This document shows positions 11,401 through 36,784 of a DNA stretch of 43,509 bases, piece by piece. The position numbers were made by a program, and so were the translations under genes. The notes beneath the pieces were generated by a model. It was not told the DNA's origin. It saw only the letters and a program-made list of their open reading frames with translations, and made no database searches. Positions within the stretch are counted from its first letter, which is position 1. Each line of letters starts with the position of its first letter. The DNA is from a virus: the IMG/VR virus record IMGVR_UViG_3300047586_000336, positions 1-43,509 of that record; one strand, 5' to 3'.

Positions 11401-11404
11401 CGTA

Positions 11405-14962: not shown

Positions 14963-15049
14963 GTCACATAAGTGACTATCGCGAATCCGACGAGTCGGAT
15001 CGCATTCATGTAGATAGAGGGAGACGCGGAAGCGATTCCGCGTCTCCCT
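14963..15049. repeat. Tandem small hairpins next to the terminator
   Basis: Three further inverted repeats follow: GTCAC/GTGAC (14963-14976), ATCCGAC/GTCGGAT extended by GCG/CGC with one bulge (14981-15003), and a 13-bp stem AGGGAGACGCGGA with its complement (15018-15049), the last inside the 3' end of the HNH gene. None has a clear U-tail on the minus strand. Confidence 0.6.
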
Positions 15050-20887: not shown

Positions 20888-21235
20888 TTATCTATGAAAT
20901 CCTCTAGGCATACTAGAAGAACCACCATAGTTTCCTATGTGAAGAGTATCTCTCACTTGACTATTCTTCATTCCTGTTCCTCTTAAGGCTTTCAGTGTGC
21001 TAGCGCGTCGGCCACGCTCAAGATCAGTAGCAATCACACTTCTGGTAGTGCGATTCAGAGACCTTCGTGATCTACCAGGAGGAGCTATAATTCTCTCTGA
21101 ATTGCGATATGCTCTGGCATTCTTGGCAATCACATCTCTGGTCCCTTTCTTCACTCCCCATTTCATTCCCATGACTCCATACTCATTCAATGCTTTCTTT
21201 CCGAACACTTGTTTGTTTGTAAATGTTTTGCTCAT
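20888..21235 (-). CDS. Leader-family small basic protein 1 (GMKWG class)
   Basis: 115 residues. It opens with MSKTFTNKQVF, then GKKALNE and YGVMGMKWGVKK; the LNE tripeptide (residues 16-18) fits the (L/I)-x-E cleavage rule of T4-type prohead proteases. The rest is very basic (RNSERIIAPPGRSRRSLNR, LERGRRASTLKALRG). It overlaps the DUF4254-like gene by ATGA. One of ten paralogues sharing the leader; I infer a capsid-targeted internal protein. No enzymatic motif is visible. Confidence 0.8.
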   Translation of the reverse strand: MSKTFTNKQVFGKKALNEYGVMGMKWGVKKGTRDVIAKNARAYRNSERIIAPPGRSRRSLNRTTRSVIATDLERGRRASTLKALRGTGMKNSQVRDTLHIGNYGGSSSMPRGFHR

Positions 21236-21486
21236 TGTCCTTTACCATAGTCCTTCAACTGCGGGAAGACCAATTTCTTGTTGGTCCCCGATATTGCGTC
21301 CCTAAGAAATTCATCAATTTCCTGTATAAGTGAATTCCTCTGAAGATTCAATATGCTTATTTTTCTCTTTGCCTCTGCAACTTGATTGTCGTCGGCCCCA
21401 TCGGCTTGTGCTTTCTCTTCATTGTGCCACAGTTTCATGACAACAGTCATGAGTTTGTCATTTAGCGATCCGAGCGTTTCAGCCAT
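21232..21486 (-). CDS. DUF4254-like protein
   Basis: 84 residues from MAETLGSLND. The pattern GSLNDKLMTVVMKLWHNEEK followed by AKRKISILNLQRNSLIQEID is that of DUF4254: an N-terminal GSL-DKL--V-KLWH helix and the LN-QRN-L--EID helix. Bacterial members sit near glycosyltransferases of envelope polysaccharide clusters; the molecular role is not known. Here it is wedged between leader-family genes, within the same transcript as a GT9 enzyme's downstream genes. A shorter ATG was chosen over the longer frame since the 5' extension lacks coding character. Confidence 0.7.
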   Translation of the reverse strand: MAETLGSLNDKLMTVVMKLWHNEEKAQADGADDNQVAEAKRKISILNLQRNSLIQEIDEFLRDAISGTNKKLVFPQLKDYGKGQ

Positions 21487-21506
21487 GATTATTATCTCGC
21501 AAATTA

Positions 21507-21806
21507 TTAATGCCAATCAGAGGGAAATCTGTGATGACCCACACGAGCTCGACTGGATGATCCTCTAAGGCTCTTGAATACTTTGGCCTCTAGATCCTTC
21601 GTATATTGCATATTCTTTTTTGCCTTCAGCTCATCTCTCCTATTGCCTCTAACAGCTGCAGGATCTCCTTTCCTCAAAGCTTTAAAAAAATCACGACCAC
21701 GAATACCAGTCCCAAAACCAGGTCTTCCTCTCGTTACCCATCCCTTCTTGGCTCCCTCGGAAGTACCAGACTCGAACACTTCTTTGTTTGTAAATGTTTT
21801 GCTCAT
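21507..21806 (-). CDS. Leader-family small basic protein 2 (SEGAKKGW class)
   Basis: 99 residues, site AGGAAGTAAA. Leader MSKTFTNKEVF runs straight into ESGTSEGAKKGWVTRGR; the leader is shorter than in its paralogues, so the only fitting site is VFE at residues 10-12. The body is arginine/lysine-rich (GRDFFKALRKG, RGNRRDELKAKKN, KSLRGSSSRARVG). Probable packaged DNA-associated protein by analogy with the other members. Confidence 0.78.
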   Translation of the reverse strand: MSKTFTNKEVFESGTSEGAKKGWVTRGRPGFGTGIRGRDFFKALRKGDPAAVRGNRRDELKAKKNMQYTKDLEAKVFKSLRGSSSRARVGHHRFPSDWH

Positions 21807-21832
21807 TTTACTTCCTATTCCCCATCACCAGG

Positions 21833-22582
21833 CTATTTGCCACTTGCTATGGCATAGCCTACAACGATCCCAAGCGCCACCTTGTACACGAAGCCACCTG
21901 CCTTCTCTAGAAAAGATGTCGTCGTTATCTTCTGATAAGCTCCAAAGGCATTCTCCAGGGCAGCGTATTTCTCGTTCCCAAACCCGATCTTCTCACCCAG
22001 AGCTTTCTGGATGCCAGCATCATTAAGAATGACTTTCGCCTGATCATCAATGGTGCTCTTCTGTGTCACGATTGTTTTCTGCAGAGCAGGAATCTGTACC
22101 AACGAAAAGCTTTCCCACTCCAGCAGGCGACGCATGTTCTCGCGGAATGGTACCATCGTGAACACGACTGTCTCGCCATTCAGCCACAGGTCCTTGTTCA
22201 CGAGAATACGCTGTGTCTCTTTGACCAATTGATCAGGAGGAGTCGTGGCTACTTGAGCAAGGAGCTTCTTATTCGTCTCTTGCTCCTTTTGGAAACCAAC
22301 AGCCAGTTTATCAAGAGCAACATTGTTCTTGGCTATGAGATCAAAGAGTTTCTCGTTGTCGTCGCTGAGCTTGGAGATCTCTTTGTCCTTGTCCTTGTCC
22401 TTGGCCTCCAAGACCTTTATGGAAGCAGTGTAAGTCTGCTCCAGGACTTTGGCAGCCTTGCGCCCTGCGATCGTCTGGCCACAGGAATAGCCAAAGGCCA
22501 TAATGAGAATGACAAGCACTGCTCCAAGAGCAATGATCACTTTTGTTTTCGTGGGCATTGGGGTCGCAGTTGTGTCAGGCAT
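21833..22582 (-). CDS. Membrane-anchored coiled-coil protein, spanin-like
   Basis: 249 residues, strong AAGGAGTCTATC site. One transmembrane segment near the N-terminus (VIIALGAVLVILIMAFGYSC), then a long charged coiled coil (VLEAKDKDKDKEISKLSDDN onward), and a second hydrophobic segment close to the C-terminus (FVYKVALGIVVGYAIA). The N-terminal anchor plus periplasmic coiled coil is the plan of inner-membrane spanins (Rz). The C-terminal hydrophobic segment is atypical and would suit a unimolecular spanning protein. A structural membrane role is the alternative. Confidence 0.55.
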   Translation of the reverse strand: MPDTTATPMPTKTKVIIALGAVLVILIMAFGYSCGQTIAGRKAAKVLEQTYTASIKVLEAKDKDKDKEISKLSDDNEKLFDLIAKNNVALDKLAVGFQKEQETNKKLLAQVATTPPDQLVKETQRILVNKDLWLNGETVVFTMVPFRENMRRLLEWESFSLVQIPALQKTIVTQKSTIDDQAKVILNDAGIQKALGEKIGFGNEKYAALENAFGAYQKITTTSFLEKAGGFVYKVALGIVVGYAIASGK

Positions 22583-22595
22583 GATAGACTCCTTA

Positions 22596-23018
22596 TTATT
22601 TGCCTCTTTTCCAATTGATACCTTCTTTTGAATATGTATGTTTCAGACCAGAGATGTCAAGTCTTGCTTGCTTATTTCGTAGTCTAACAGAAGAAGAATT
22701 TCGTGGCCATGTTGATGCCTTACGATGCTCTCTATAAGTATGCAGCATGTCGGCAATATCTTTACGAGCAGCTGCAGCTTTCCCCCCGAATCTTTTCACA
22801 GAGTGTTTACCTGGTCCTGCATTTGCTTTAGCTGCAAATTTAGCCATGATCTCCTTTGAATAGTCCTTAACTCCTTTAGGAAGCTTTCGATCATGCCTGT
22901 CCTGGACTGTGTATGGCTGCTTTGATGTCTTGCCTTTGCCCCAATGCATCCCAAGAACTCCATACTCATTCAAAGCTTTCTTTCCAAACAATTCTTTGTT
23001 AGTAAATGTTTTGCTCAT
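22596..23018 (-). CDS. Leader-family small basic protein 3 (GMKWG class)
   Basis: 140 residues from the ATG of MSKTFTNKELF (a TTG two codons earlier is possible but less likely). GKKALNE then YGVLGMHWGKGK repeats the layout of member 1. The body is strongly basic (QDRHDRKLPKGVKDYSKE, GKHSVKRFGGKAAAARKD, YREHRKASTWPRNSSS). It is separated from member 4 by six bases and shares its transcript. Confidence 0.78.
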   Translation of the reverse strand: MSKTFTNKELFGKKALNEYGVLGMHWGKGKTSKQPYTVQDRHDRKLPKGVKDYSKEIMAKFAAKANAGPGKHSVKRFGGKAAAARKDIADMLHTYREHRKASTWPRNSSSVRLRNKQARLDISGLKHTYSKEGINWKRGK

Positions 23019-23024
23019 GATCAA

Positions 23025-23273
23025 TTACTCTTTGTTAAGACCATGACTTATGGATGATCTTATCATTCTGTTTCTTCGCTGCCTTGACATGTTTGGCCAA
23101 GTAGCGGACCAATGTTTTTTCTGTGTTCTGTACTGCTTTGCTAAAGTGTCCCGTAGATACTGCGATTGGCCACCTGTGCCTGAACGAGTTTGCCATCCTT
23201 TCTTGGCACCTTCAGATGTGCCAGATTCATGAATCCTGCCAAACACTTCCTTGTTTGTAAATGTTTTGCTCAT
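23025..23273 (-). CDS. Leader-family small basic protein 4 (SEGAKKGW class)
   Basis: 82 residues. Leader MSKTFTNKEVFG, site RIHE (residues 13-16), then SGTSEGAKKGWQTRSG. The C-terminal half is basic and tryptophan/arginine-rich (TQKKHWSATWPNMSRQRRNR). It overlaps the upstream membrane protein by ATGA. Confidence 0.78.
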   Translation of the reverse strand: MSKTFTNKEVFGRIHESGTSEGAKKGWQTRSGTGGQSQYLRDTLAKQYRTQKKHWSATWPNMSRQRRNRMIRSSISHGLNKE

Positions 23274-23566
23274 TGTCCTATCTTACAATCTTCTTCCTCT
23301 TTGCCATTTTTCTTGTTGGCAAAGAACGACGCTGCCGACTGTCCTCCTCTTACGACGAGAAGAGCTATTGCCATCTCTTTTATCGCTGTTATTGCACTTG
23401 TCCCCAGCTCAGCCGTCATGACACTAGAAGCTCGAGCGTATGTGAGAACAATGAACACAGCGGCTGCTGCAAACACAAATGCAATAATTTTCTGTGATGA
23501 CATCTTATACAGCGAGCGGATGAAGCAGTCTTTGATGCCCCATTTAGGCTGTTTAGTCGTTGCCAT
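23270..23566 (-). CDS. Small two-segment membrane protein
   Basis: 98 residues. A basic N-terminus (MATTKQPKWG) precedes two hydrophobic stretches (KIIAFVFAAAAVFIVLTYA and TAIKEMAIALLVVRG), and the C-terminus is charged (NKKNGKEEEDCK). The size and plan fit a class II-like holin, but it lies among packaged-protein genes, away from the amidase, so a holin call is only one option. Confidence 0.6.
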   Translation of the reverse strand: MATTKQPKWGIKDCFIRSLYKMSSQKIIAFVFAAAAVFIVLTYARASSVMTAELGTSAITAIKEMAIALLVVRGGQSAASFFANKKNGKEEEDCKIGQ

Positions 23567-23567
23567 T

Positions 23568-23885
23568 TTACTTCTTCAGGAGCAGCTCTCTCTGGACAAG
23601 CTCAGCAAGAGCTTTCCCAGAGAGAGCTATGCTTTCCCAGTATGTTTTTCGCTCCACAGGCTGTGGAGCTCCCACGAGTTTCACGACACCGTCGGTGACT
23701 TCGTACCCCACCTTGCGAGCGACATTGGCATCAAATTGCCCATTGGTGTATATGATCTCTGCATCAGAGAAATCCTCCACATATGCTGATTCTCCGTAGG
23801 CAATTTTTACAGCGTCCCGAATGGCAGCTCCCAGAGACATGAATTGCTCTGTAATGACTAGATTGCCGATGTGGAATTTAGGCAT
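23568..23885 (-). CDS. Small protein of unknown function between leader-family genes
   Basis: 105 residues from MPKFHIGNLVITEQ. A much longer frame exists but its first 91 residues lie antiphase over the coding end of the next gene and read as noise. The C-terminal half (AYVEDFSDAEIIYT, KVGYEVTDGVVKLVGAPQPVERKTYWE) resembles short phage capsid-region domains that end in '-V-L-G-P--V-R---Y'. No function can be given. Confidence 0.68.
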   Translation of the reverse strand: MPKFHIGNLVITEQFMSLGAAIRDAVKIAYGESAYVEDFSDAEIIYTNGQFDANVARKVGYEVTDGVVKLVGAPQPVERKTYWESIALSGKALAELVQRELLLKK

Positions 23886-23892
23886 GGAGTTA

Positions 23893-24279
23893 TTACTTCT
23901 CGTCTCTAAGCTGAGCGACAAGTCCAGGAAACCGCTTTTTGCTGTACACAGATGTTTTCCCATTCCACACGCGAGTAGATTTAGCCTTCTGAGACTTAGC
24001 AGTCCGGTTGTGGCCAAACGCCATGGCGAAGTTGCTGGCAACATTTTTCTGCTGTGAATTCTTAGCACGCTGGCTACGAATATCGTCTGCCTTCCTCTTC
24101 CTATGCATAGCAGCAAAGTTACCATACTTTTCAATACTATTAACATTGGCCTTAACACGCATTCCTCGTGTCACCGTGGAGCCACCTCTCCTAGACAGCC
24201 ATCCTTTCTTGGCTCCCTCGGAATTGCCTTCCTCATGAAGCTTGCCGAACACTTCTTTATTTGTAAATGTTTTGCTCAT
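23893..24279 (-). CDS. Leader-family small basic protein 5 (SEGAKKGW class)
   Basis: 128 residues. MSKTFTNKEVFGKLHEEGNS and then EGAKKGWLSRRGG; LHE (14-16) is the putative processing site. The first 26 residues are identical to member 6, with which it overlaps by ATGA, pointing to recent duplication. The body is basic (GNFAAMHRKRKADDIRSQRA, RTAKSQKAKSTRVW). Confidence 0.8.
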   Translation of the reverse strand: MSKTFTNKEVFGKLHEEGNSEGAKKGWLSRRGGSTVTRGMRVKANVNSIEKYGNFAAMHRKRKADDIRSQRAKNSQQKNVASNFAMAFGHNRTAKSQKAKSTRVWNGKTSVYSKKRFPGLVAQLRDEK

Positions 24280-24644
24280 TTGCCTCTGCTCCTCCCAGTC
24301 TTCGCAGACCATTTCCCCTTCCTATTGATATAGGTGAAATTTGTCATGCCCTTAGGAGTCTGGACAGGAGCATATAAGGTATGATGACTCAGCTCTGTTG
24401 CAATTTTGCCACGCACTTCTGAGTTTGGCATTCCCCTTCTGCGATACATTTTGGCATAATGGGCAGCTTCCTTTCTGGCTTTAGATCCACGAGGGAAATT
24501 GTAATGGTGAATATCAAAACTAGATGCAGCTCCCTTCCCGCTTGCACCACGACCCCTGGTCTCCCATCCTTTCTTGGCTCCCTCGGAATTGCCTTCCTCA
24601 TGAAGCTTGCCGAACACTTCTTTGTTTGTAAATGTTTTGCTCAT
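24276..24644 (-). CDS. Leader-family small basic protein 6 (SEGAKKGW class)
   Basis: 122 residues; first gene after a promoter, site AAGGACA. MSKTFTNKEVFGKLHEEGNS is followed by EGAKKGWETRGRG. The remainder is basic, with FPRGSKARKEAAHYAKMYRR and a C-terminal RKGKWSAKTGRSRGK. It heads the cluster of six leader-family genes and the interspersed membrane genes. Confidence 0.82.
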   Translation of the reverse strand: MSKTFTNKEVFGKLHEEGNSEGAKKGWETRGRGASGKGAASSFDIHHYNFPRGSKARKEAAHYAKMYRRRGMPNSEVRGKIATELSHHTLYAPVQTPKGMTNFTYINRKGKWSAKTGRSRGK

Positions 24645-24712
24645 TGTCCTTGCTCTACATCACCACCACGAGACCCATGGCTCTCTTTGCCAAAGTCTCT
24701 ATATACATCTTT

Positions 24713-24741
24713 ATTATAAGCCCATTATCTGCCATTCCAAA
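24713..24741 (-). promoter_or_regulatory. Promoter TTTGGA-N17-TATAAT for leader-family cluster A
   Basis: TATAAT preceded by GGCT, with TTTGGA 17 bases upstream. It overlaps the 3' end of the GT9 gene and lies about 70 bases before member 6. Confidence 0.75.
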
Positions 24742-25768
24742 ACTTCAGAACAGCCTGGGTAATGAGACTGGAGACTGTCTTCTCGTCTGTCTCCAGCATG
24801 CAATCGAACAAATATTCACATTTTTCTGCTTGCTCAAAACAAGGCTGACACTTGTGCAGTGCAGCCAAGTCAATCACTTCCACTCCCTCTGGATAGAGAG
24901 GATGGTAAATGACACGCTCGCTCGCTCGCGAGGGACCAAGCACAGCCACCAATGATATAGATGTGAAATGTGATATCCACAATGGTGAGGAGTCCATGCT
25001 CACCACTGCATCTGCAAGCATGATACAGGAGAACAATTGAAGCAGCGTTTGCTTTTGGTACAGTTTTATTACACCATCAGGAAGATCCAGCGCAGCCTCT
25101 GTGCCTATGTAAACCACTTTGACTCCGCTTGCCACGAGCTCCGCGATGGTCGTCTCGATGGCAGAGCTGGTCAATCCTCTGTAGGGAGTATTTCCCCTCC
25201 CCTGAAATACGATGTAATGTTCTGGCAATGGCACCAGAGGGTCTATCACAAAGCGATCTGGCTCAATGCTCCAATCGAAATCTTTAGCCACATAGTCTTT
25301 CAGTCCCAAAGCTTTAGCATATATATCACAACGATGCATTTTTTGAAGCACAGGATCAGCATGATCTCGTTCAACCAATTGATCAAGATTGACGCAGTAT
25401 CCATTCCAGCTTCCCTCTGAAGCATACACCTCAACTGCTTCTCCACAGATGGCTCGCAGCAATGGCACATAGTTATTCGGCACTCGGAGTGCCACGTTGT
25501 AGCCACGATGTTTTAGCAATCGTGCCACAGGGACAACCATCAGCATGTCACCCAGCGAGAACGTACGCATCAGAGCAAACTCTGGATTGCCATTCTCAGT
25601 GATGAATTTCAAAGGCGACTCGATCCGTGTCAAACCAGTTGGACTGATATCCCAGGAATTCATCTCGACAATAGCTTTTGCTGGCATATTCAGAAGGCCG
25701 CACCAAGTTGAAAAACCTTGCCCAATTCGGCCATCATTTACTGCCCAATCAAATAGACCTTTGGCCAT
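24725..25768 (-). CDS. GT9 (heptosyltransferase-like) glycosyltransferase
   Basis: 347 residues, AGAGGTGCAATA site. The N-terminal GT-B signature ALMRTFSLGDMLMVVPVARL (GD-L-x-P pattern) and C-terminal LADAVVSMDSSPLWISHFTS followed by AVLGPS (D-S-x-x-x-H-hA and LFGPT-like) are those of ADP-heptose:LPS heptosyltransferases. The C-terminal KCQPCFEQAEKCEYLFDC resembles the cysteine-rich end of this family. It is separate from the main glycan cassette and sits behind lysis genes. Likely modifies a surface glycan or virion protein. Confidence 0.82.
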   Translation of the reverse strand: MAKGLFDWAVNDGRIGQGFSTWCGLLNMPAKAIVEMNSWDISPTGLTRIESPLKFITENGNPEFALMRTFSLGDMLMVVPVARLLKHRGYNVALRVPNNYVPLLRAICGEAVEVYASEGSWNGYCVNLDQLVERDHADPVLQKMHRCDIYAKALGLKDYVAKDFDWSIEPDRFVIDPLVPLPEHYIVFQGRGNTPYRGLTSSAIETTIAELVASGVKVVYIGTEAALDLPDGVIKLYQKQTLLQLFSCIMLADAVVSMDSSPLWISHFTSISLVAVLGPSRASERVIYHPLYPEGVEVIDLAALHKCQPCFEQAEKCEYLFDCMLETDEKTVSSLITQAVLKFWNGR

Positions 25769-26007
25769 TATTGCACCTCTGTAATAGTCATACCAGGAGT
25801 TTTCGGAGGAGCTGGTGGATTTTTCCTAGGCAATACCCTCTCTATGAGATCAATGACAGCATTGGCTATCGTTCTGATTACAGATAACAGGAATCGTAAC
25901 ACAATGAATGGAACACATAGCAGGACCAGAATTAGCCCGACAGTCAGACCAAACAGAACAGCTCCAATTGCTGCCAAAACATTTTTCATTGAATTTAGAA
26001 TTTTCAC
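25768..26007 (-). CDS. Small membrane protein, candidate holin
   Basis: 79 residues, GTG start with AGGAGCTGAT. Two close hydrophobic segments (VLAAIGAVLFGLTVGLILVL and CVPFIVLRFLLSVI) followed by a basic, proline-rich tail (RVLPRKNPPAPPKTPG). It lies two genes after the amidase, as expected for a holin. TAATG overlap couples it with the GT9 gene. Direct holin homology is not recognised. Confidence 0.55.
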   Translation of the reverse strand: MKILNSMKNVLAAIGAVLFGLTVGLILVLLCVPFIVLRFLLSVIRTIANAVIDLIERVLPRKNPPAPPKTPGMTITEVQ

Positions 26008-26025
26008 ATCAGCTCCTAATCTTCA

Positions 26026-26223
26026 TTATTTTAACTCAAATGGAGTTTCAGCCAAATTTCCTTCCTGCAGCATTTGATTGTAGAGACACACCAGTCGTTC
26101 CAGCTCTGGCTGTGTTTTACCATAGATGCGACAGATTTTGCAGAATCGCATTCGTATGTCCCGATAATATACCACCCCTCTGGCAATGGCTATCTCCTCT
26201 TCAGTAAGCAAAGCGTCTGGCAT
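26026..26223 (-). CDS. Small protein, unknown function
   Basis: 65 residues with a TGATG overlap with the amidase gene and no own ribosome binding site, so coupled translation is likely. An acidic helix (LLTEEEIAIARGVVYYRD) precedes FCKICRIYGKTQPELERLVC, whose CxxC could bind metal. No function recognised. Confidence 0.65.
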   Translation of the reverse strand: MPDALLTEEEIAIARGVVYYRDIRMRFCKICRIYGKTQPELERLVCLYNQMLQEGNLAETPFELK

Positions 26224-26804
26224 CAGGAGGAGCCATCCATTCGGTGCACAGCGTCACGAATACCATCAATCGTAGCCCTAGCGAGCAAACAAATTGTATC
26301 ATAAGTGCTAAGCCACAGAGCCTGCTTCTCATTGGAGATAAACTCATATTCCAGCAAAGCCGCTGGAGCCTCTGTATGCAGAAGAACATAGAACTGTGAT
26401 TGTTTGATGCCACGATCCTTATGGCCTTGTCGCGATAGCACTTGGGCCATGCGACTATGCATTACGCTGGCAAACTTTCTCCCAGCTACGGAGTTCTTGC
26501 AGTGCCAGGACTCGAAACCCTCAGCCTCGGCATTATCTGCACTGTTGAAATGCATAGAGATAAATAAGTCAGCTTTGGCATCATTGCTGATGCGAACTCG
26601 CTCGACAAGTGACACCAAATTGTTATCAAGATGAGTGAATAAAAGCTCTGTATTTGCTATGAGAGCTGTGGACCACATTGATTCAATTGTTTGGGCAAGC
26701 AGGAGAGTTAGATCTGATTCGTGGAGAGCAAGAGATGTGTTTACTGCACCTGGATCATTCCCACCGTGCCCAGGATCCAGACAAACGATTCTCTGTGTGC
26801 CCAT
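26223..26804 (-). CDS. Endolysin: N-acetylmuramoyl-L-alanine amidase (Amidase_3)
   Basis: 193 residues from the ATG with AGAGGAGGAGAC. Zinc and catalytic residues of Amidase_3 are in place: LDPGHGG (H13), LHESDL (E29), SMHFNSA (H85) and AALLEYEFISN (E152). It cleaves the amide bond between the glycan strand and the stem peptide of peptidoglycan. There is no signal peptide and no cell wall-binding domain, which fits a globular Gram-negative phage endolysin that needs a holin for export. Confidence 0.93.
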   Translation of the reverse strand: MGTQRIVCLDPGHGGNDPGAVNTSLALHESDLTLLLAQTIESMWSTALIANTELLFTHLDNNLVSLVERVRISNDAKADLFISMHFNSADNAEAEGFESWHCKNSVAGRKFASVMHSRMAQVLSRQGHKDRGIKQSQFYVLLHTEAPAALLEYEFISNEKQALWLSTYDTICLLARATIDGIRDAVHRMDGSS

Positions 26805-26817
26805 GTCTCCTCCTCTA

Positions 26818-27519
26818 TCAATCGAGATCGTATGTGTTCCCAAAACTCATACTTGAGATCTTTGCAGTTCCTGGCTCTAACTGCAGATAAGCATAATCCC
26901 CATCCAGACCCCAACGCTTCTTGTCCTTGTCCCAAGGAGCATACAGGACAGAGAAATTATCCAGGACATATTCATCTAGCAGTTTCTCATAAACACCAGC
27001 TACCTTCTCAACACCAGCCGATATCCCAAACCAGAACTCTGGCAACGGATTCTTGACACTATTTCTGCCTGAAGTTATCAGCTTGACCCACACACCAAGA
27101 TCCTTTGACTTTCCAGTCTCATCTTGCCAATCAGAGATATCCACATTCTCCCAAGTACGCTTGACAGGGAACTTGAGACCGATGGTCGAAGTCACCCATT
27201 TCTGCATCACCTTAATGATCTCTGTGATTCGCTCGTCTGTAATGCTAAGTTTCATAGCTTTCTCCTTATCGACCAGCCTTGCTGGCTCTGGCACAATATA
27301 GTTCTTGACTGGCTCTTCAGCTACTTGGATCTTGACAATCTCTTTGTGACAAACGAGACACGAGATCGTGACTGTGTGATCAAGTTTGTCATAAGAAGCT
27401 TCTATAGGACCACCCAGATGGCAAGCCTGATGAAAGTAAAGAACTGAATCATCATGATGATCACAGTTGGGATCTTTGCACACATGACTGTCTAAATCTT
27501 TACAGCAAAATGGTATCAT
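26818..27519 (-). CDS. Zinc-binding protein, unknown function
   Basis: 233 residues. The first 60 carry many Cys/His (CCKDLDSHVCKDPNCDHHDD, YFHQACHLGG) and ISCLVCHKEIV, likely one or two zinc sites. The rest, from about residue 90, is a mixed domain (RITEIIKVMQKWVTSTIGLK, PEFWFGISAGVEKVAG) with an aromatic C-terminus. ATGA overlap with the upstream gene. No named family recognised. Confidence 0.68.
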   Translation of the reverse strand: MIPFCCKDLDSHVCKDPNCDHHDDSVLYFHQACHLGGPIEASYDKLDHTVTISCLVCHKEIVKIQVAEEPVKNYIVPEPARLVDKEKAMKLSITDERITEIIKVMQKWVTSTIGLKFPVKRTWENVDISDWQDETGKSKDLGVWVKLITSGRNSVKNPLPEFWFGISAGVEKVAGVYEKLLDEYVLDNFSVLYAPWDKDKKRWGLDGDYAYLQLEPGTAKISSMSFGNTYDLD

Positions 27520-28004
27520 TTGGCCACTCCTGAGACAAGAGTTATCCAGCCTGCGCTGGGGACACAGCTATACTTTCTCTTAAATTCTATCCATGCCACA
27601 TCGTGCGGGATAGCACTGCCTCGTGCCACAGCCGCATCATAGAGCACAAGCCATTCATCAAATAACGCTTGGTCATTGTTCAACATGCTGAGATAGAGAT
27701 TGGGAACTTTACGGGGATCGGTGAGCTGAACAGCAGGAGTAGCTTTGGGCTGAAAGTCCATAAGCACTTCTTGCTCCACGAGATCCTCGGCATCATGCTC
27801 AGCATCAGCCTTCTCTTGGATCTTGTCCAATGCTGTCAGTGTGTCACTTACAGAATGGCTCAGCACCCATTCCCATGTTAGTTTCTCTGCCTGGATGGCA
27901 CGAATTGTACGCTCCGCTTGCTCGTCGGAAGTGAAGCCATGGTTGAACAGACGAGCAAAAAACATGCTGTTAGAAGTGAAAAAGTCTTCATGTCGCTCTG
28001 CCAT
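27516..28004 (-). CDS. Unknown protein, first gene of lysis operon
   Basis: 162 residues, TAGGAGAAGCTG site. Acidic overall; N-terminal helices (FFARLFNHGFTSDEQAERT, LTWEWVLSHSVSDTLTALDK) and a C-terminal segment with WIEFKRKYSCVPSAGWI. It opens the operon that includes the amidase and is directly downstream of a promoter. No function recognised. Confidence 0.68.
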   Translation of the reverse strand: MAERHEDFFTSNSMFFARLFNHGFTSDEQAERTIRAIQAEKLTWEWVLSHSVSDTLTALDKIQEKADAEHDAEDLVEQEVLMDFQPKATPAVQLTDPRKVPNLYLSMLNNDQALFDEWLVLYDAAVARGSAIPHDVAWIEFKRKYSCVPSAGWITLVSGVAK

Positions 28005-28022
28005 CAGCTTCTCCTACTCATA

Positions 28023-28051
28023 ATTATACGCTTATCCATGGGCAGTTTATA
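28023..28051 (-). promoter_or_regulatory. Class A promoter (CCATG spacer element) for lysis operon
   Basis: TATAAT preceded by GCG, with a CCATG element 8 bases further upstream and a poor -35 (TATAAA). The same N4-CCATG-N5-GCG-TATAAT spacing is found at three other sites in this window. It overlaps the MuF gene stop. Confidence 0.75.
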
Positions 28052-30599
28052 GACCCATCGCTTTGATTACATAAGCAAGAGTTTCCCAGCCACCCTGATA
28101 AAATACTTTCAGCAGCTTAATATCACCACTCCCTCTAACTACCCACTCTCTCTCATAATTGAAACTTGACCATTTCATACCAGGAGACCATAAAATGTCC
28201 TTGATTGGGACCTCAAATCTGACAACTGCCGTGCCACTAAGTCCCCCGAAATTCCTTCTCAAGTATTCAAAGTCATCTGACATCCCTGCAACAGAGTTGG
28301 CAATAACAGATTTATGCTCTGCTATGCTGGCAGCAATATTTTTGATTTCCGCATCTGAAACAGCTCGATACAAGATCTTTGGGCTAGCAGATAACACTTC
28401 CCGCTCAGCCAACTGCTGGCTAAAGAAAGAGCTCTCTCTTAACATCTGCTCAATCTCTTTCCTGATCTCTGCCACGACCGCTGGGTCCTTGGTGCCATAA
28501 AATCCACCAATCAATGACTCTATACTCTTGGCATTTTCAGCTGTCGTGAAAGAAGGCTCATAAGCTGCTGAAACAATTCCCTCTTGCTTCGCTATAAGTT
28601 TCTTCATCAGCAGACGAGCATCTGTATCATCTCTTGCCCAGCCATTGGCAAGAGACTGAAATCTTCCATGCACAGATTCCTTAGTGAATAACTGTTTGGC
28701 TGCATTGCTCGTCTCTACATCAGCCCATGTACTGCCAGGAAGCTCCGTTGCCTTCTCACCCAGAGTAGCATTCAGCCTTCGTAACAATTCCCCATCAGAG
28801 ATATTTTCATACTGTGGTTGCATTCTAAACAGCACATCCGTATTGTGATTCCATGTAACAGCACCATCCGTGGTCTCAAGACTCAGATAATCATAGGCTG
28901 TGTCTCTGACGACACCACGGATCACTTTGTTGCCTCGGAGCAGAACGAATTCGTCGCCTTTGCTAACCACTTTAGACTGCAGCATGCTATACAATTCATC
29001 ATCGGCCATCAGTCGTCCCCCAAAAGTCGCAGCGTCCTCTGCTGCTGCCACCAAGTCACTCACAGCCACCGTTGGTGTCACGCGCACTCCCGCTCGCGAG
29101 GCAGCATTTATAATGTCACCATTGATAGAGCGACGAGTCTTAATCCATTCTAATTTGTCAGCAGGATTATCAGCCAGCTGAACCATTTGACGAGCTTTGT
29201 ACATGCTACTGTACATATCGTCAAACTCAGATTTTAACACGCCCTCAATTGGCATGCCATTGGTTGCATCCTCAACCCAGGCAGCTCCAGGAGGAACTCC
29301 GACTCCAGGTAGAGCAGGAATGCTGGCAGCGGGAGCTCGGCGTACATTGAGAGAACATTTGCAATTAGAGAGACATTGAGTATCACCAGCTCGTGGTGTC
29401 GTTGGAAGTGTCTCCCAAGTATAACTCCGCTGACTGAGAATTACACAGTCATCACAATGATTGTCATTAGGACCAAGCACCCAATCAATCTCGATATTCT
29501 CTCCCGCACCTGCTAAAATTCCATTCTGCCATGCGCTTTTTGCAGAATCTGCATACATCATCGCTCGCTTATCATAAGGAATGCGTGGAGTGTGATCAGG
29601 ATCTTTGATATCAATGAGAAACTTAGAGAAGAATGTCTCCTCGTGAGCAATGGCTTTAGCTATGAAATCTTGATCCTGGCTAGTCAGGCCCATCTCATCA
29701 TAGAATGGATTGCCAGAAGCTTTTGAGCCTGCCAGGAACATCTTCTCATAAGCCTCTGATGTAGCGGAACGCCAGCGATCTATAGCCTGGTTGAAATCAA
29801 GTGTGCCTCCTGCATACTTGGCATATATGTCAGTCAGCTCAGCTCTGAAGCCCGAGTCAATGTCTGCTACAGCAGCATAGCCAGCCTGCATGACCTTTTG
29901 ATTGCGCATACCCAGAGAAAAATATAAGGTTGACTGGCCTTGCATTATGGGATTTTTAGCAACAGCCCCAGAAATTGCTTTGTCTGATTCAGAAAGAAGC
30001 TCCATAAAAACTGCAAGAACATCTTCACGTATGAAATTTAGAGATTGTTTTCGAGCTGCTTTGTCTTTGCCAAGCAGCTGCTCTTTGAGAATCCTTGATG
30101 CTTCAATGCCGCCATTAACATAAACAGCACTAGAGATGAATCCTTCAGGATTCTGCTCTGGATTAGGATATAAAGTATAGTCTCTTCCTCCAGACAAGCC
30201 ACCCACCTTCACTCGGACAATAGTATAATGCCAATCCTTGCCGTCTTGACTAGCGTCGTGTTGCTGGACATCCCTATACCATCCAGCTTCATCTCTGTCA
30301 CCAAACAGAAATATACGACCTCTCTTGCCACCATAAAGCTCTCCATGATATCCCGACACCAAGCCTCTTTTCTTTATGTCTTTAAAAGATACATCAGGAA
30401 TAACATGATAAGCAATAGAGCCAGGAGCAAATTTCCCTCTAATAATAGACAGCTGATTCATAACAGGCTCTGCTGTCTTAGTCCCACCCTCTTTGGCACT
30501 CCCTCCTACTTCATTTGGTCTTCCTGCATGGCCCCAGTTGCCAGACTCAGGAGTCCCATATTCCAGCAGAGAAGGATTGTCAGATGGGGGTGGCATCAC
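28047..30599 (-). CDS. MuF-type minor head protein with ADP-ribosyltransferase-like ends
   Basis: 850 residues. The N-terminus has SLLE then YGTPESGNWGHAGRP and EVGGS, a short element that recurs in phage head proteins. Residues about 63-180 look like an ART/KptA-type fold (AYHVIPDVSFKDIKKRGLVS, IFLFGDRDEAGWY). The MuF core is clear: DNHCDDCVILSQRSYTW with PRAGDTQCLSNCKC (Cys 382, 385, 409, 413, 415). The C-terminus has ILYRAVSD (R745), GLSGTAVVRFEV and NYEREWVV (ExE at 816-818), compatible with an R-S-E ART. Start is GTG or the next ATG; no clear ribosome binding site. MuF fusions are thought to be packaged and injected. Confidence 0.78.
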   Translation of the reverse strand: MMPPPSDNPSLLEYGTPESGNWGHAGRPNEVGGSAKEGGTKTAEPVMNQLSIIRGKFAPGSIAYHVIPDVSFKDIKKRGLVSGYHGELYGGKRGRIFLFGDRDEAGWYRDVQQHDASQDGKDWHYTIVRVKVGGLSGGRDYTLYPNPEQNPEGFISSAVYVNGGIEASRILKEQLLGKDKAARKQSLNFIREDVLAVFMELLSESDKAISGAVAKNPIMQGQSTLYFSLGMRNQKVMQAGYAAVADIDSGFRAELTDIYAKYAGGTLDFNQAIDRWRSATSEAYEKMFLAGSKASGNPFYDEMGLTSQDQDFIAKAIAHEETFFSKFLIDIKDPDHTPRIPYDKRAMMYADSAKSAWQNGILAGAGENIEIDWVLGPNDNHCDDCVILSQRSYTWETLPTTPRAGDTQCLSNCKCSLNVRRAPAASIPALPGVGVPPGAAWVEDATNGMPIEGVLKSEFDDMYSSMYKARQMVQLADNPADKLEWIKTRRSINGDIINAASRAGVRVTPTVAVSDLVAAAEDAATFGGRLMADDELYSMLQSKVVSKGDEFVLLRGNKVIRGVVRDTAYDYLSLETTDGAVTWNHNTDVLFRMQPQYENISDGELLRRLNATLGEKATELPGSTWADVETSNAAKQLFTKESVHGRFQSLANGWARDDTDARLLMKKLIAKQEGIVSAAYEPSFTTAENAKSIESLIGGFYGTKDPAVVAEIRKEIEQMLRESSFFSQQLAEREVLSASPKILYRAVSDAEIKNIAASIAEHKSVIANSVAGMSDDFEYLRRNFGGLSGTAVVRFEVPIKDILWSPGMKWSSFNYEREWVVRGSGDIKLLKVFYQGGWETLAYVIKAMGL

Positions 30600-30608
30600 A
30601 TTACTGTG

Positions 30609-30794
30609 TCAATATTTATTACGAGCCAGTGCCTTGTGGCGCATCGCGGATCGGTGCAGTTTGTAACTCGTGCGAGGATCTGATTCCTTTCTAGACTTGG
30701 TCTGCAAAGCCTGCGCCACGGCGTGATGGTGCTCCTTGGCAGGTGCCTGCTCTCTGATATTGAAGATGTCTTTATTTGTAAATGTTTTGCTCAT
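30609..30794 (-). CDS. Leader-family small basic protein 7 (short)
   Basis: 61 residues. MSKTFTNKDIFN then IRE (13-15, putative cleavage site) and QAPAKEHHHAVAQALQ; it lacks both the SEGAKKGW and the GMKWG elements. The tail is basic (TKSRKESDPRTSYKLHRSAM). It lies between the portal-side poly-alanine gene (ATGA overlap) and the MuF gene, which suggests co-packaging with the MuF protein. Confidence 0.75.
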   Translation of the reverse strand: MSKTFTNKDIFNIREQAPAKEHHHAVAQALQTKSRKESDPRTSYKLHRSAMRHKALARNKY

Positions 30795-31267
30795 GATAGT
30801 CTCCCTTTACTGCGAGTGGCAGCAGCAGCAGCGGCAGCAGCGGCAGCAGCGGCAGCAGCGGCAGCAGCAGCCGCTGCTTGGGAAGCATCTCTGACAGCTT
30901 GGGTTGCCTGCACAGAGGCTGTCGTCGCGGCTGAAGCAACTCCGGCAACGGCAACGCTCAGCCCCTTGATATCGGAGAATAATTGCTGATGCTCCGTGTG
31001 GTTTTCCTTCCGAAATTCCTTGAACTCATCAAGCTGACGTTGTACCCCGGAATGGAGTGGACATTCTGGAAATTGCTCCCCGTCCCCATCTTTGGTCGGG
31101 ATAGTCACAGTGACGGCCTGTGTCGCCTGACGCGGACGCTTAGATAAAATTTCAACAATTTTGAATCCGATAAATCCGAGACAGGCTATTAGAAGCATTG
31201 CGCCGCCCACCTTGAAGGCAGCAGCTATCTGGCCCAGGTTTTGGGCGATGGTGGTAATATCAGGCAT
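30791..31267 (-). CDS. Membrane protein with poly-alanine tract
   Basis: 158 residues, AGGACAAC site. One transmembrane segment (GGAMLLIACLGFIGFKIVEI) near residues 20-40, a linker, a coiled-coil-like stretch (RQLDEFKEFRKENHTEHQQL) and a C-terminal run of about 20 alanines encoded by tandem GCN codons, ending in TRSKGRLS. The tract comes from a 9-base DNA repeat. Function unknown; tail or head-vertex membrane contact are possibilities. Confidence 0.7.
   Translation of the reverse strand: MPDITTIAQNLGQIAAAFKVGGAMLLIACLGFIGFKIVEILSKRPRQATQAVTVTIPTKDGDGEQFPECPLHSGVQRQLDEFKEFRKENHTEHQQLFSDIKGLSVAVAGVASAATTASVQATQAVRDASQAAAAAAAAAAAAAAAAAAAATRSKGRLS
30818..30876. repeat. GGCAGCAGC tandem repeat (poly-alanine coding)
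   Basis: A 9-base unit (GGCAGCAGC on the plus strand) is repeated about five times, flanked by degenerate GCAGCA triplets. It encodes alanines in the membrane protein's C-terminus. Copy number can change by slippage in multiples of three without breaking the frame. Confidence 0.85.
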
Positions 31268-31281
31268 GTTGTCCTACTTTC

Positions 31282-33006
31282 TTATTTATGTCGATGGAAC
31301 AACCGCTTGCTTGCAGGAATTCCAATTTTAGCCATCTGATTGTCATCGCGAATAGCCATTCTCCACGACATCAGATCGTGCAATTGTTCAAGCATCTCTC
31401 TTATGTAGGGGTCACGTCTTACAAGTTTTGCCATCTCAGGAGGAAGCTGTGTATAGCCATACGACCCTGTGTTAACATCAGCAGGCTGAACACCAGGAGT
31501 GCCAGCATCTTGCTGTGCATTAGGATCAGCGTTCGGATCATAGCCATAGTCTTGCTGCTGTCCTCCGCTCCCGCCCTCGGGCGCGAGAGCCATGTCCTCT
31601 GGTGCGATGGCGGAATACTTCGCAATCTCATCATCGTCAAAGTCCAAGATCTCTCTCATGATCCATTCTGTATTAAGCACAGCCATGTCCACCGCATATG
31701 TCTTGGCCAGCTGAGCCTTGCTCGTTGCGATCTGCCACTTCACCAGCTCGTCCATCGTGGCCAGCTCTGGGAAGGAAATGTCCCACTTGAAACTCTTGGG
31801 ATCTATGCCACCAAGCACAAGCACGACTTCATAGAATCTTTTTAGAGCAGCCAGCAGAGACATCTGCTTGCGCCGCACCTGACGAGCAAACTGGACATCC
31901 AGCTGAGTCAGAGTAGCACGAGCACTCACTCCTTCCTCAAGTGACACATAAGCTTTGGGAGTATTGGTGGCAGTAAAGAATTTGTTCTGGAGATATTCTA
32001 CATCTCGCACATTGCTGACATTGGTGTCACCGCTGAGTGTACGCACATCAGTCCTACCGTCCTTCGTGACAGGAAGACCAATGTCCTCGTCTGGCAGCAA
32101 GGCTCTGTCGCTTTCTGTGATACGCCCAGAGCCACGATCTACAATCTCACGACGCTGGACACGAGCCATGAATTTGTCAACATAGTCAAACGACTGGTCA
32201 GGCGACAGTCCCGACGTGTCAATAATATAGGCATAACGCATCCATGCTCTACTCATGCGAGCCAGCACCAGAGCGTCATCAATCCATATAAGCTGGCGAC
32301 CAATACGAGTGGCAGCATTGGCAAAGATGGCTCGATCTACTCCATATGTATCAAAGCCAATCTTGAAATGCAGTAGTCTCCACCAGTCAAAAGGAATCTT
32401 ATCATTGCTCCCAGAACGAATCTGGAAATATGGCTTCTCGGCGTCTCGAGTGACACCATACTCATCAACATCGGCAAATACTTCTTTCACAGGTAAGGCT
32501 TTCAACTTGACAGGCAGAGGAGTTCCTCCCTCACCATAGTCACCAAGCACGATCTCATAAAATGAGTCCCCAAATTTGCTGGTGTTGCGAGCAATGTCCC
32601 ACACCTGCTCTTTGATTCCTGTCTTAGCTTCAACCTTCTTGACCAACTCTTCGGCCTGGAGTTTCAGAGCTGCAGGAGTATCCTTGTCAACATTGAACCA
32701 GAAACATTCCTCACCACCAATGGAGCCAGCCACAATTGTATCCGCATAGACATTCAGCACTCCGGCTGCTTCCGCCAGGTTTTCATCAAGGAAATTGTAG
32801 CGATCATATTTCTCAAGACGCTGGCGAGTCGTTGCCATGGAGCTGTAATAATAATCCTGCAGAGCCTTGCCAAGTATTGAAGGATAATTGGCAGGAGCCG
32901 GAATTAATTCAGAAGTTTGGCTGGCATCCTCTACTGGCGAGGAGCCAAAGGATTTGTTGATAAAATTTCTTATGCGATCAACGAGTGTGGCATTTCGTTC
33001 TTCCAT
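31282..33006 (-). CDS. Portal protein, T4 gp20-like
   Basis: 574 residues, AGAGGTATAAA site. It shows the gp20 order: YDRYNFLDENLAEAAGVLNV near the start, VWDIARNTSKFGDSFYEIVL, the WWRLLHFKI strand, MSRAWMRYAYIIDTSG, and YLQNKFFTATNTPKAYVSLE with SARATLTQLDVQFARQVRRK. The C-terminal 120 residues are Pro/Gln/Gly-rich then helical. It forms the DNA-passage ring at one capsid vertex and is the docking site for the terminase. Confidence 0.92.
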   Translation of the reverse strand: MEERNATLVDRIRNFINKSFGSSPVEDASQTSELIPAPANYPSILGKALQDYYYSSMATTRQRLEKYDRYNFLDENLAEAAGVLNVYADTIVAGSIGGEECFWFNVDKDTPAALKLQAEELVKKVEAKTGIKEQVWDIARNTSKFGDSFYEIVLGDYGEGGTPLPVKLKALPVKEVFADVDEYGVTRDAEKPYFQIRSGSNDKIPFDWWRLLHFKIGFDTYGVDRAIFANAATRIGRQLIWIDDALVLARMSRAWMRYAYIIDTSGLSPDQSFDYVDKFMARVQRREIVDRGSGRITESDRALLPDEDIGLPVTKDGRTDVRTLSGDTNVSNVRDVEYLQNKFFTATNTPKAYVSLEEGVSARATLTQLDVQFARQVRRKQMSLLAALKRFYEVVLVLGGIDPKSFKWDISFPELATMDELVKWQIATSKAQLAKTYAVDMAVLNTEWIMREILDFDDDEIAKYSAIAPEDMALAPEGGSGGQQQDYGYDPNADPNAQQDAGTPGVQPADVNTGSYGYTQLPPEMAKLVRRDPYIREMLEQLHDLMSWRMAIRDDNQMAKIGIPASKRLFHRHK

Positions 33007-33033
33007 TTTATACCTCTACTCCCTTATTGACTT

Positions 33034-33570
33034 TCATGATAGTTCTAGAGCTGAGCACCAGTTGTGTAATTTGCGCTTCTTCTGGACTTCTTGAAACCAG
33101 TTAATCCATTCGGATCTGTTAAAATTCGTTATAGAATGACAAGAATTGCACAGCTCTATAAGATTCATAGTATCATTGTTTTTCTTGTCATAGTCGATGT
33201 GATGAATGCAATGTTTTCTTGTGCCTTCTTTTCGTCCACAGATTTGGCAAGTGTGATGATCACGCTCGCCAACAAATTCATGAAGAACTCTATCAAATTC
33301 TCTACCATACTCTTCAAAACTCTTGCCATCGTGCCAGTTGATATTATCAGAGCCTGACATTCTCCCATACCAGTAATTCTTGGAGCCAATCTTAGCAAGA
33401 CTCTGTTTCTTCCTTGTCGCATCAGAGGGAGAGATTCCTCTATTCCAAGCAGGCTTGCCAAGGTGAGAAAGTCTAAGTTTCTCTTTGTGCTCAGCAGACA
33501 TATGCTTGCCGAGATGAGAAAGTCTAAGTTTCTCTTTATTCTCAGCAGACATATGCTTGCCTTTTGCCAT
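33034..33570 (-). CDS. HNH homing endonuclease with tandem NUMOD3 repeat
   Basis: 178 residues. Two nearly identical 17-residue NUMOD3 units at the N-terminus (MSAENKEKLRLSHLGKH and MSAEHKEKLRLSHLGKP), then AWNRGISPSDATRKK, and the HNH part (HTCQICGRKEGTRKH, CIHHIDYDKKNNDTMNL, LCNSCHSITNFNRSEW). It lacks the N-terminal zinc motif of its two paralogues. It sits between portal and leader-family genes. Confidence 0.92.
   Translation of the reverse strand: MAKGKHMSAENKEKLRLSHLGKHMSAEHKEKLRLSHLGKPAWNRGISPSDATRKKQSLAKIGSKNYWYGRMSGSDNINWHDGKSFEEYGREFDRVLHEFVGERDHHTCQICGRKEGTRKHCIHHIDYDKKNNDTMNLIELCNSCHSITNFNRSEWINWFQEVQKKRKLHNWCSALELS
33455..33556. repeat. Two tandem 51-bp direct repeats in HNH gene
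   Basis: The segment from TTGCC to the next TTGCC is repeated with a 51-base period, differing at only a few positions. It is exactly 17 codons, the length of one NUMOD3 DNA-binding unit, so recent duplication has added a repeat to the protein. Confidence 0.9.
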
Positions 33571-33840
33571 TTAGGACTTCCTTCCAAGCATTTTCAACAC
33601 TTGATTTCTTTCTCTAACTCGTGCTCGTCTCATAGATGGGTGAAAATGGCTTTTTCTAAGATCACTTTCGATATTGACAAGAGCACTCTCCAGACCTGAC
33701 GAGGAATATGTAATTCCCCCAGAATTTATCTCTCTACTCTCTACACCACGATTGACTGTGTCCTTATGAGTGCCCCATTTCATGCCTTTGACGCCCATTT
33801 CATTCAGGCCAAGATCCTTGTTCGTGAATGTGTGGCTCAT
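33571..33840 (-). CDS. Leader-family small basic protein 8 (GMKWG class, divergent leader)
   Basis: 89 residues, GGAGCTTAATAGC site. Leader MSHTFTNKDLG, then LNE (12-14) and MGVKGMKWGTHKD. The leader is shorter and has H for K. The C-terminal half is basic (SDLRKSHFHPSMRRARVRER). It lies between the HNH gene (no spacer) and member 9. Confidence 0.76.
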   Translation of the reverse strand: MSHTFTNKDLGLNEMGVKGMKWGTHKDTVNRGVESREINSGGITYSSSGLESALVNIESDLRKSHFHPSMRRARVRERNQVLKMLGRKS

Positions 33841-33844
33841 GCTA

Positions 33845-34237
33845 TTAAGCTCCGTGATAATCAGATCCTTCCCATCGTTTGCGCTGTGATATCTGTAGGG
33901 CAGCAGAGCCCCGAGAAGGAGAAGAATAAAAAGAGCTCCTTCGTCTTGCTTTTTTCTGCTGTTTCAATACCAGTGTCTGTACATATCGATTAGCAGCCTT
34001 TGTCTGTCCAAATCTCTTCAGGGAATTCTTCGCTGCCTGCACCCCCAGCGCAGCCTTTGGCTCACTTTTGGCATATTTTCTACCAATCTTGATGCCTCCG
34101 GCTAGAAAATCTCTATCAATCTGAGACTTGTGACTATCACTTCCGTGCCGAGTCTTCCAGCCTTTGACAGCTCCTTCAGAGTTTCCTTCCTCGTGAAGCT
34201 TGCCAAACAATTGCTTGTTTGTAAAAGTGTGACTCAT
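33845..34237 (-). CDS. Leader-family small basic protein 9 (SEGAKKGW class)
   Basis: 130 residues. MSHTFTNKQLFGKLHEEGNS then EGAVKGWKTRHG; LHE (14-16) is the putative cleavage site. The body is basic (GRKYAKSEPKAALGVQAAKN, LVLKQQKKARRRSSFYSSPS). Overlaps nothing; four bases separate it from member 8. Confidence 0.78.
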   Translation of the reverse strand: MSHTFTNKQLFGKLHEEGNSEGAVKGWKTRHGSDSHKSQIDRDFLAGGIKIGRKYAKSEPKAALGVQAAKNSLKRFGQTKAANRYVQTLVLKQQKKARRRSSFYSSPSRGSAALQISQRKRWEGSDYHGA

Positions 34238-34248
34238 GGCGAGTCTCT

Positions 34249-34683
34249 TTATCTGAATTTTCTTACAGCACGTGCACGAGGAGGAGCTACAGGATTCCGC
34301 ACAGCAGATGGTGCGACCCCTCTGAATCCACCAGCATGTGCTCTACTCGGAGATGCACTACGAGCAGGAGCTGCAAATACAGGCACAGGTCTCGGGGCAT
34401 TTCTTTTCACAGGAGATGTCGGTGCAGGTCTCTTTGGGGCTGGAGAGAATTTGCGAAACTTGGCTCCTGGATTCGTGGGCAAAGGCTTGAAGGGAATAGG
34501 TTTCTTCTTGATGGGTCTGATAGGCTTGAAGAAAATAGGTTTCTTCTTCTTTGGCTTATTAGGAATAACTCTTGGCAGCGGAGTCACAGCTCCACCGCCT
34601 GACTTTTTGCTACCAAATGTGCCCGAAGGCACAGCTTCCCTAAGATCACCGAACAGCTCTTTGTTTGTAAATGTTTTGCTCAT
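34249..34683 (-). CDS. Leader-family basic protein 10, lysine/proline-rich
   Basis: 144 residues, AAGGAATC site; first gene after a promoter. Leader MSKTFTNKELFGDLRE (site LRE, 14-16) is followed by a low-complexity region: repeated K-P blocks (KPKKKKPIFFKPIRPIKKK), PAPKRPAPTSPVKR, and an Arg/Ala/Pro C-terminus (RNPVAPPRARAVRKFR). There is no compact domain, and the composition resembles histone-tail or protamine-like DNA-neutralising proteins. It stands between terminase and portal genes. Confidence 0.78.
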   Translation of the reverse strand: MSKTFTNKELFGDLREAVPSGTFGSKKSGGGAVTPLPRVIPNKPKKKKPIFFKPIRPIKKKPIPFKPLPTNPGAKFRKFSPAPKRPAPTSPVKRNAPRPVPVFAAPARSASPSRAHAGGFRGVAPSAVRNPVAPPRARAVRKFR

Positions 34684-36747: not shown

Positions 36748-36756
36748 GACAGGAGT

Positions 36757-36784
36757 ATTATACTCCAAACCAGAAGATTCCAAA
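36757..36784 (-). promoter_or_regulatory. Promoter TTTGGA-N16-TATAAT for terminase
   Basis: TATAAT sits at the centre of a near-palindrome (GGAGTATAATACTCC), and TTTGGA lies 16 bases upstream. The palindrome over the -10 could be an operator for a dimeric repressor. Confidence 0.65.

Follow-up and report, generated by a model that had tools for sequence, protein, structure and literature searches.

The stretch of DNA analyzed here, called the window, is the whole 43,509 nucleotides of the IMG/VR virus record IMGVR_UViG_3300047586_000336, a 43.5-kb sequence that is probably a fragment. It contains ten genes, all on the minus strand and all with ATG starts, whose products begin with the leader MS(K/H)TFTNK and carry a tripeptide (L/I/V)-x-E shortly afterwards. 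The ten genes were present in the three regions where the original prediction had placed them (20888-24644, 30609-30794 and 33571-34683), and a search with the leader DNA pattern rendered 10 matches in the window, compared to 0.00 expected from shuffles. The tripeptide was found in every protein within residues 10 to 18, ending at residues 12 to 18, and in gene order read LNE, VFE, LNE, IHE, LHE, LHE, IRE, LNE, LHE and LRE, as had been listed. Nine of these conform to the strict form (L/I)xE, the tenth being VFE, with V at P3. Shuffling of each protein produced the tripeptide in the same stretch 1 to 10% of the time, with a product of ∼4e-15, a value that overstates the significance because the ten genes are paralogues. 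The bodies that follow the site comprised 46 to 128 amino acids (aa), with a net charge of +8 to +31 and a pI of 10.6 to 12.0. Mean identity among the ten genes was 87% in the leader DNA (nucleotides 1 to 27) and 28%, ungapped, in nucleotides 100 to 180, as expected for unrelated bodies, in agreement with the divergence and strong basicity that had been claimed for them.

In eight of the ten proteins the site ran directly into one of two conserved motifs, which the original prediction had overlooked. Motif A, YGVxGMKWG, corresponds to the family DUF7211 (PF23847), against which the window copies scored 20 to 24 bits, with a curated cut-off of 27 bits. Three proteins carry it: that of gene 1 (20888-21235, 115 aa, leader MSKTFTNKQVFGKKA, site LNE at residues 16 to 18, motif version YGVMGMKWG, body charge +17, DUF7211 E value of 2e-5, below the curated cut-off), that of gene 3 (22596-23018, 140 aa, LNE at 16 to 18, YGVLGMHWG, +21) and that of gene 8 (33571-33840, 89 aa, leader MSHTFTNKDLG, LNE at 12 to 14, MGVKGMKWG, +8). 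Motif B, xGxSEGAKKGWxTR, is carried by five: those of gene 2 (21507-21806, 99 aa, leader MSKTFTNKE, VFE at 10 to 12, motif SGTSEGAKKGWVTR, +14), gene 4 (23025-23273, 82 aa, IHE at 14 to 16, SGTSEGAKKGWQTR, +11), gene 5 (23893-24279, 128 aa, LHE at 14 to 16, EGNSEGAKKGWLSR, +20), gene 6 (24276-24644, 122 aa, LHE at 14 to 16, EGNSEGAKKGWETR, +16) and gene 9 (33845-34237, 130 aa, LHE at 14 to 16, EGNSEGAVKGWKTR, +17). Neither motif was present in the products of gene 7 (30609-30794, 61 aa, IRE at 13 to 15) and gene 10 (34249-34683, 144 aa, LRE at 14 to 16), the latter with a Pro/Lys/Arg-rich body of charge +31. A further motif, also overlooked before, was found in a MuF-like protein of 850 aa (28047-30599, minus strand). 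Its N-terminal SLLE is followed by motif C, GHxGRPxxVGGS, in the version YGTPESGNWGHAGRPNEVGGS.

The head genes of the window, all on the minus strand, are T4-like. The gp21-type prohead protease, fused to a coiled scaffold-like region (17189-18523, 444 aa), matched PF03420 (family S77) with an E value of 3.3e-10 (40.2 bits, cut-off 27), phrog_207 with 2.5e-28 and the structure of T4 gp21 (5JBL) with 3.5e-4, so that the gp21-like protease invoked by the original prediction is indeed encoded. Its His76 and Ser130 were invariant across four aligned S77 proteins. In the gp23-type major capsid protein (15919-17163, PF07068, 4e-36), the tripeptide LQE86 directly precedes the conserved mature domain and aligned to LNE, LSE and IDE in the contigs G001, G073 and G008, respectively; the capsid proteins of the four S77 phages thus have (L/I)xE in common at the mature boundary of the alignment. 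A gp20-type portal protein (31282-33006, PF07230, 1.9e-38) and a terminase large subunit (34795-36783, phrog_2, 4e-5) complete the set. Single-protein searches for relatives with the window protease and capsid protein yielded nothing close.

An exact search for the leader in viral contigs rendered, among the matches listed, only L012, a 12.3-kb fragment of a near-identical strain; L008 to L011 were rejected as further carriers since their matches were due to chance. The leader is therefore specific to the window phage and this strain, and it is the site plus motif that recurs elsewhere. One relative, G001 (92.8 kb), carries S77 and gp23 genes and is 43% identical to the window in the capsid protein, 50% in the terminase, 46% in the portal and 35% in the protease; its MuF-region protein is 39% identical to the MuF-like protein (E value, 5e-86). 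G001 lacks the MSKTFTNK leader, each of its genes having a different one. A regular-expression count rendered 12 full and two truncated copies of motif A, and all 12 full copies, found without requiring the site, were preceded by (L/I/V)xE, several of them inside polyproteins. Over two copies, G001 matched DUF7211 with 41.6 bits. One 404-aa protein contains four copies of motif A that would divide it, after a 17-aa leader, into basic pieces of 83 to 111 aa (+12 to +19), which correspond in kind to the separate genes of the window. The body of gene 7 is similar over 38 aa (53%; E value, 4e-8) to part of a G001 cargo protein. The motif C copies of G001 are preceded by LDE, LQE and LVE. Enzyme domains were also detected in its pieces, namely topoisomerase IB (6.7e-17), KptA (3.6e-6) and, weakly, PARP. 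In two frames of this contig (L053, 9564-12320 and 7318-9585), LxE plus motif A or C precedes topoisomerase IB, PARP-like and KptA-like domains, and the products are candidate injected enzymes. The statement of the original prediction that ten such genes would be an unusually large arsenal is to be seen in context: G001 has at least 12 motif A units, partly in polyproteins, and in Arthrobacter phage Gordon four motif A genes in a row (genes 8 to 11) are located between terminase and portal.

Since motifs A, B and C all occur in other phages, a comparative test of the site was possible. The scans of the collection yielded samples, so that totals of contigs and copies are those of the matches listed and are lower bounds; the contigs are fragments, in part related to one another. 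Without any upstream requirement, motif A was found in at least 120 contigs and at least 268 copies. Among the matches listed, the residue two before the G of the motif was H in 266 of 268 and Q in the remaining 2, with no case of E, and a hydrophobic residue sits two before that H, giving the pattern LxH. None of the 50 LxH contigs searched contained S77, and in 42 of them an S78 prohead protease was found, in long frames. The 32 S78 proteins fetched were protease-linker-capsid fusions. In their linkers, 154 of 178 His residues had L, I, V, M or F two positions before (base rate, 22%), compared to 21 of 90 in the capsid domains (base rate, 28%; p = 8e-25), an enrichment that is expected if S78 proteases cut at LxH. 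The capsid and protease fusions examined had none of motifs A, B and C at their processing sites, so that the motif is probably not needed for cutting. No solved structure matched the S78-capsid fusions by sequence. A scan of prokaryote genomes for LxE plus motif A rendered six matches that look like chance and were set aside. In Gordonia phage Fazel, gene 13 (L357, 7513-9186), annotated as an RNA ligase, contains LMH followed by YGVKGMKWG at about residue 361 of 557, a sequence that suggests that the protein may be cut in two.

Motif C allowed a comparison within single contigs, given that at least 43 contigs had at least 2 distinct copies each. The residue adjoining the motif agreed in 175 of 198 within-contig pairs (88%), compared to 15% between contigs, and 0 of 2,000 permutations reached the within-contig value; when L, A, V and M were pooled, 195 of the 198 pairs agreed. 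Agreement was weaker at P3 (29% within versus 9% between contigs), at P2 (19% versus 9.5%) and at P4 to P10 (8 to 17% versus 6 to 8%). Recent duplication was rejected as its cause, the strong agreement being confined to one adjacent residue. Single contigs illustrate this constancy, with nine copies all preceded by N in one, eight all preceded by K in another and six all preceded by (L/I/F)xE in a third. The presence of S77 in E-type contigs was stated as an expectation before 42 motif C contigs were searched for it, and the sole match was the contig with the six (L/I/F)xE copies. S77 was found in 4 of 12 E-type contigs and in 0 of 97 others (p = 9e-5), with G011 counted as E (QSKE).

Other residues before the motifs were accompanied by other families. 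DUF2213 (PF09979) gave strong matches (E < 1e-30) in 12 of 15 D-type contigs and in 0 of 33 others (p = 7e-9), and weak DUF2213-related matches occurred mainly in the R-x-(L/A) group. To judge from this distribution, DUF2213 would behave as a prohead protease family, with a divergent relative accompanying R-x-(L/A). DUF2213 contigs with D before cargo motifs include G077, G084, G086, G094, G110, G113 and G132. In proteins of the Mu-type protease (PF10123), motif B lies behind the protease domain, and most of them have N at the site. Three K-type contigs carry S78, which would fit the Lys103/Ser104 cut of HK97, one that was not confirmed in the literature searched. The residue was largely shared by different motifs of one phage: E precedes motifs A, B and C in the window and A and C in G001, and in three D-type contigs D also precedes motif A, in contrast to the H of 266 of the 268 generic copies listed. 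In G012, K before motif B and R before motif C are similar, not identical. An N-type phage, G071 (L350, 8642-10759), encodes a 705-aa protease-scaffold-like protein without a PHROG match, in which VIN, VRN and FLN follow the protease-like region and which possibly represents another prohead protease family. In L016 (1469-4654), a RelA/SpoT domain (E value, 1e-18) follows motif B (QSKE before TGTPEGAKKGW) in a 1,061-aa frame. Look-alikes found with the first motif B pattern (L015, L019, L020 and similar) were set aside because they showed no sign of head context, and short peptides of motif B or C, compared by tblastn to isolate phages, rendered nothing usable.

We interpret the (L/I/V)-x-E sites of the window as prohead protease cuts that release capsid cargo, in the manner of the T4 internal proteins, the ten genes encoding precursors of small basic head proteins; we assign this reading a probability of roughly 0.78. 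It draws on what the sequences show, namely the architecture of the sites, intact genes for the protease and the capsid protein, paralogous leaders attached to unrelated bodies, and the covariation of site residue and protease family across phages. Predicted cleavage at the sites, as originally proposed, is strongly supported by the gp21 homologue and by that covariation across unrelated phages. By analogy with T4, the mature proteins would be packaged, present in the virion and injected, and it is plausible that the shared leader acts as a capsid-targeting signal in the window phage. We infer that the sites are in fact cut and that the leader has a targeting role, and likewise what each body does. 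The precursors would be made late and would enter the prohead core, with MS(K/H)TFTNK as their likely address label in the window phage. The gp21-type protease would then cut after (L/I/V)-x-E, the leader peptide would be lost, and a DNA-compatible basic protein, beginning with motif A or B in 8 of 10 cases, would stay in the head, to be ejected with the genome and to act early in the new host. Since the motifs were absent from the fusion processing sites examined, a role in the mature cargo (its retention, its binding to DNA or to the core, or its ejection) is more likely for them than one in recognition by the protease. The two proteins with leader and site and no motif favor a role of the leader in the window phage; the leaders of G001 are short and mutually unlike, so that more of the address may lie in the motif there.

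In a broader proposal, which we think fairly likely, tailed phages with unrelated prohead proteases would share a modular cargo code, in which one of the interchangeable motifs A, B and C stands at the beginning of every protein or domain destined for the head and the preceding residue is P1 of the phage's own protease, that is, E for S77, H for S78-capsid fusions and D for DUF2213, with K, N and R-x-L/A also seen. Cargo, including polyproteins with ART (ADP-ribosyltransferase), topoisomerase, RelA/SpoT and RNA ligase domains, would accordingly be released inside the prohead. The proteins that a phage packages and injects are usually not known without proteomics, and the GMKWG (DUF7211) and GSGNFGH motifs are widespread, with no role assigned in the literature found. 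If the proposal is true, likely injected proteins can be listed for many phages by one rule, a site residue that is constant within a phage, matches its protease and is followed by one of the three motifs; the specificities of several prohead protease families, including DUF2213, become predictable from sequence; and it is explained how multidomain phage effectors may be cut apart before delivery.

Several observations weigh against these interpretations. Two of the ten leader proteins carry neither motif A nor B, and the site VFE lies outside the strict T4 rule (L/I)xE. S77 was not found in two other E-type contigs of the 42-contig motif C search, and E at the site occurs without detectable S77 in G002, G003, G004, G005, G006, G011, G079 and G112. 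G006 (phrog_15531/phrog_29592) and G079 (phrog_29592) have in common an alternative maturation protease-like family with an E site, and the strict rule that LxE means S77 was rejected because G006 and others pair E with a different protease family. The p values are indicative, since the contigs are fragmentary and some are related, so that the counts are not fully independent. Finally, a function of the cargo is not to be assumed, because the T4 internal proteins are nonessential on standard hosts (PMC9026906).

Three rival explanations were weighed. Small, basic proteins encoded among head genes might be prohead core proteins, that is, scaffold helpers cut by the protease and acting in assembly like T4 gp67 and gp68, not injected effectors; the T4 core proteins are likewise cut by gp21, IPIII affects head assembly, and the four Gordon genes also lie between terminase and portal. 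This is nevertheless unlikely, since the bodies within one phage are unrelated to each other and since site plus motif precedes enzyme domains that would hardly serve as scaffold, namely the topoisomerase IB, PARP and KptA/ART-like domains of G001, RelA/SpoT in L016 and the annotated RNA ligase of Fazel. It seems highly improbable that the leader is simply an N-terminal segment of recent duplication that recombination has distributed among small DNA-binding proteins outside the virion, with an incidental LxE: G001, devoid of the leader, keeps LxE before the motif in 12 of 12 full copies, and the site residue tracks the protease family in different phages and for three unrelated motifs, even if leader DNA that is 87% identical next to unalignable bodies is what cassette shuffling predicts and an HNH endonuclease gene at 33.5 kb, adjoining cargo genes, could promote recombination.

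The covariation itself might reflect descent, the residue before the motifs being a lineage marker for reasons other than protease specificity, as contigs of one class have head genes in common and the families of the capsid protein and the protease also mark lineages. A marker of this kind would not be expected to confine its constancy to the single adjacent residue (88% at that position versus 19% at P2 and 8 to 17% at P4 to P10), nor to place the same residue before several unrelated motifs within one phage. The S77 phages, moreover, show the known T4 specificity, and capsid/protease linkers are enriched in the tripeptide that also precedes the motif, so that descent alone is quite unlikely to account for the pattern.

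Other features of the window were also noted. From residue ∼560 onward, a region that includes a weak ADP-ribosyltransferase-like match near the C terminus (DRAT, E value of 0.005, below the cut-off), the MuF-like protein is strongly diverged between the window (28047-30599) and L012 (8286-10805), and this difference between otherwise near-identical sequences resembles a swapped effector domain. Several related endonuclease-like genes with NUMOD-type repeats are located at 4741-5502, 15006-15854, 18632-19354 and 33034-33570, beside capsid, protease and cargo genes; three of them contain the HNH motif CQICGRK...HHIDYDKKN, and similar genes adjoin the head genes of G001. Glycosyltransferase- and methyltransferase-like genes at 9006-14913 and 24725-25768 lie within the structural cluster, similar ones being found beside the capsid genes of G001 and G073. 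The region 30791-31267 encodes a small membrane protein with a long C-terminal poly-alanine tract, and the opposite strand is also an open frame there.

Among known systems, the closest in organization is that of phage T4, in which gp21 cuts after L/I-X-E and removes the propeptide of gp23, the internal proteins have removable targeting leaders of ∼10 residues, and both the internal proteins, once cut, and Alt enter the host (PMC9026906). As with IPI, IPII, IPIII and Alt, the window proteins have a short shared propeptide ending in (L/I)xE and a basic variable body and accompany gp20-, gp21- and gp23-type head genes; their location in the head would follow by analogy. Pfam and PHROG searches of the ten proteins rendered no match to known T4-type internal protein families, so that we claim only that they work like the T4 proteins, not homology. 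In contrast to T4, the window has ten genes with one leader and motif A or B after the site, and the units of G001 are strung into polyproteins; a motif after the cut site of the T4 internal proteins is not described in the parts of the T4 literature consulted. The ejection proteins of SPN3US/phiKZ-type phages, as far as the sections consulted of PMC10052503 describe them, are likewise head proteins whose propeptides are cut by a prohead protease, E being the P1 residue, and some enter the host. Their protease gp245 differs in cutting after A-x-E, with A at P3, and those sections report no A, B or C motif.

DUF7211, the GVKGMKWG family matched by motif A of the window and G001 and found after LxH in other phages, is on record solely as a domain of unknown function; neither the E/H/D switch before it nor its coupling to the protease family is described in the open-license literature found, where strings of motif A or C occurred only in an unrelated neurology paper. 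The polyvalent/MuF effector proteins (PMC5512222) are multidomain proteins with ART and RelA/SpoT domains that have been proposed to be packaged and injected, with processing by zincin-like metallopeptidases; in that paper, the term prohead protease appears in a reference title and is not discussed in the text. Unlike them, the domain boundaries described here carry prohead protease-type sites. Each of the ten window proteins has just one small body and falls outside the polyvalent definition of at least two disparate domains, a class that the polyproteins and the MuF/ART/topoisomerase protein of G001 fit better. The system of the window is thus a variant of the T4 internal protein kind, and the cassette found across phages, with its interchangeable motifs and protease-matched preceding residue, appears to be new within the open-license literature searched.

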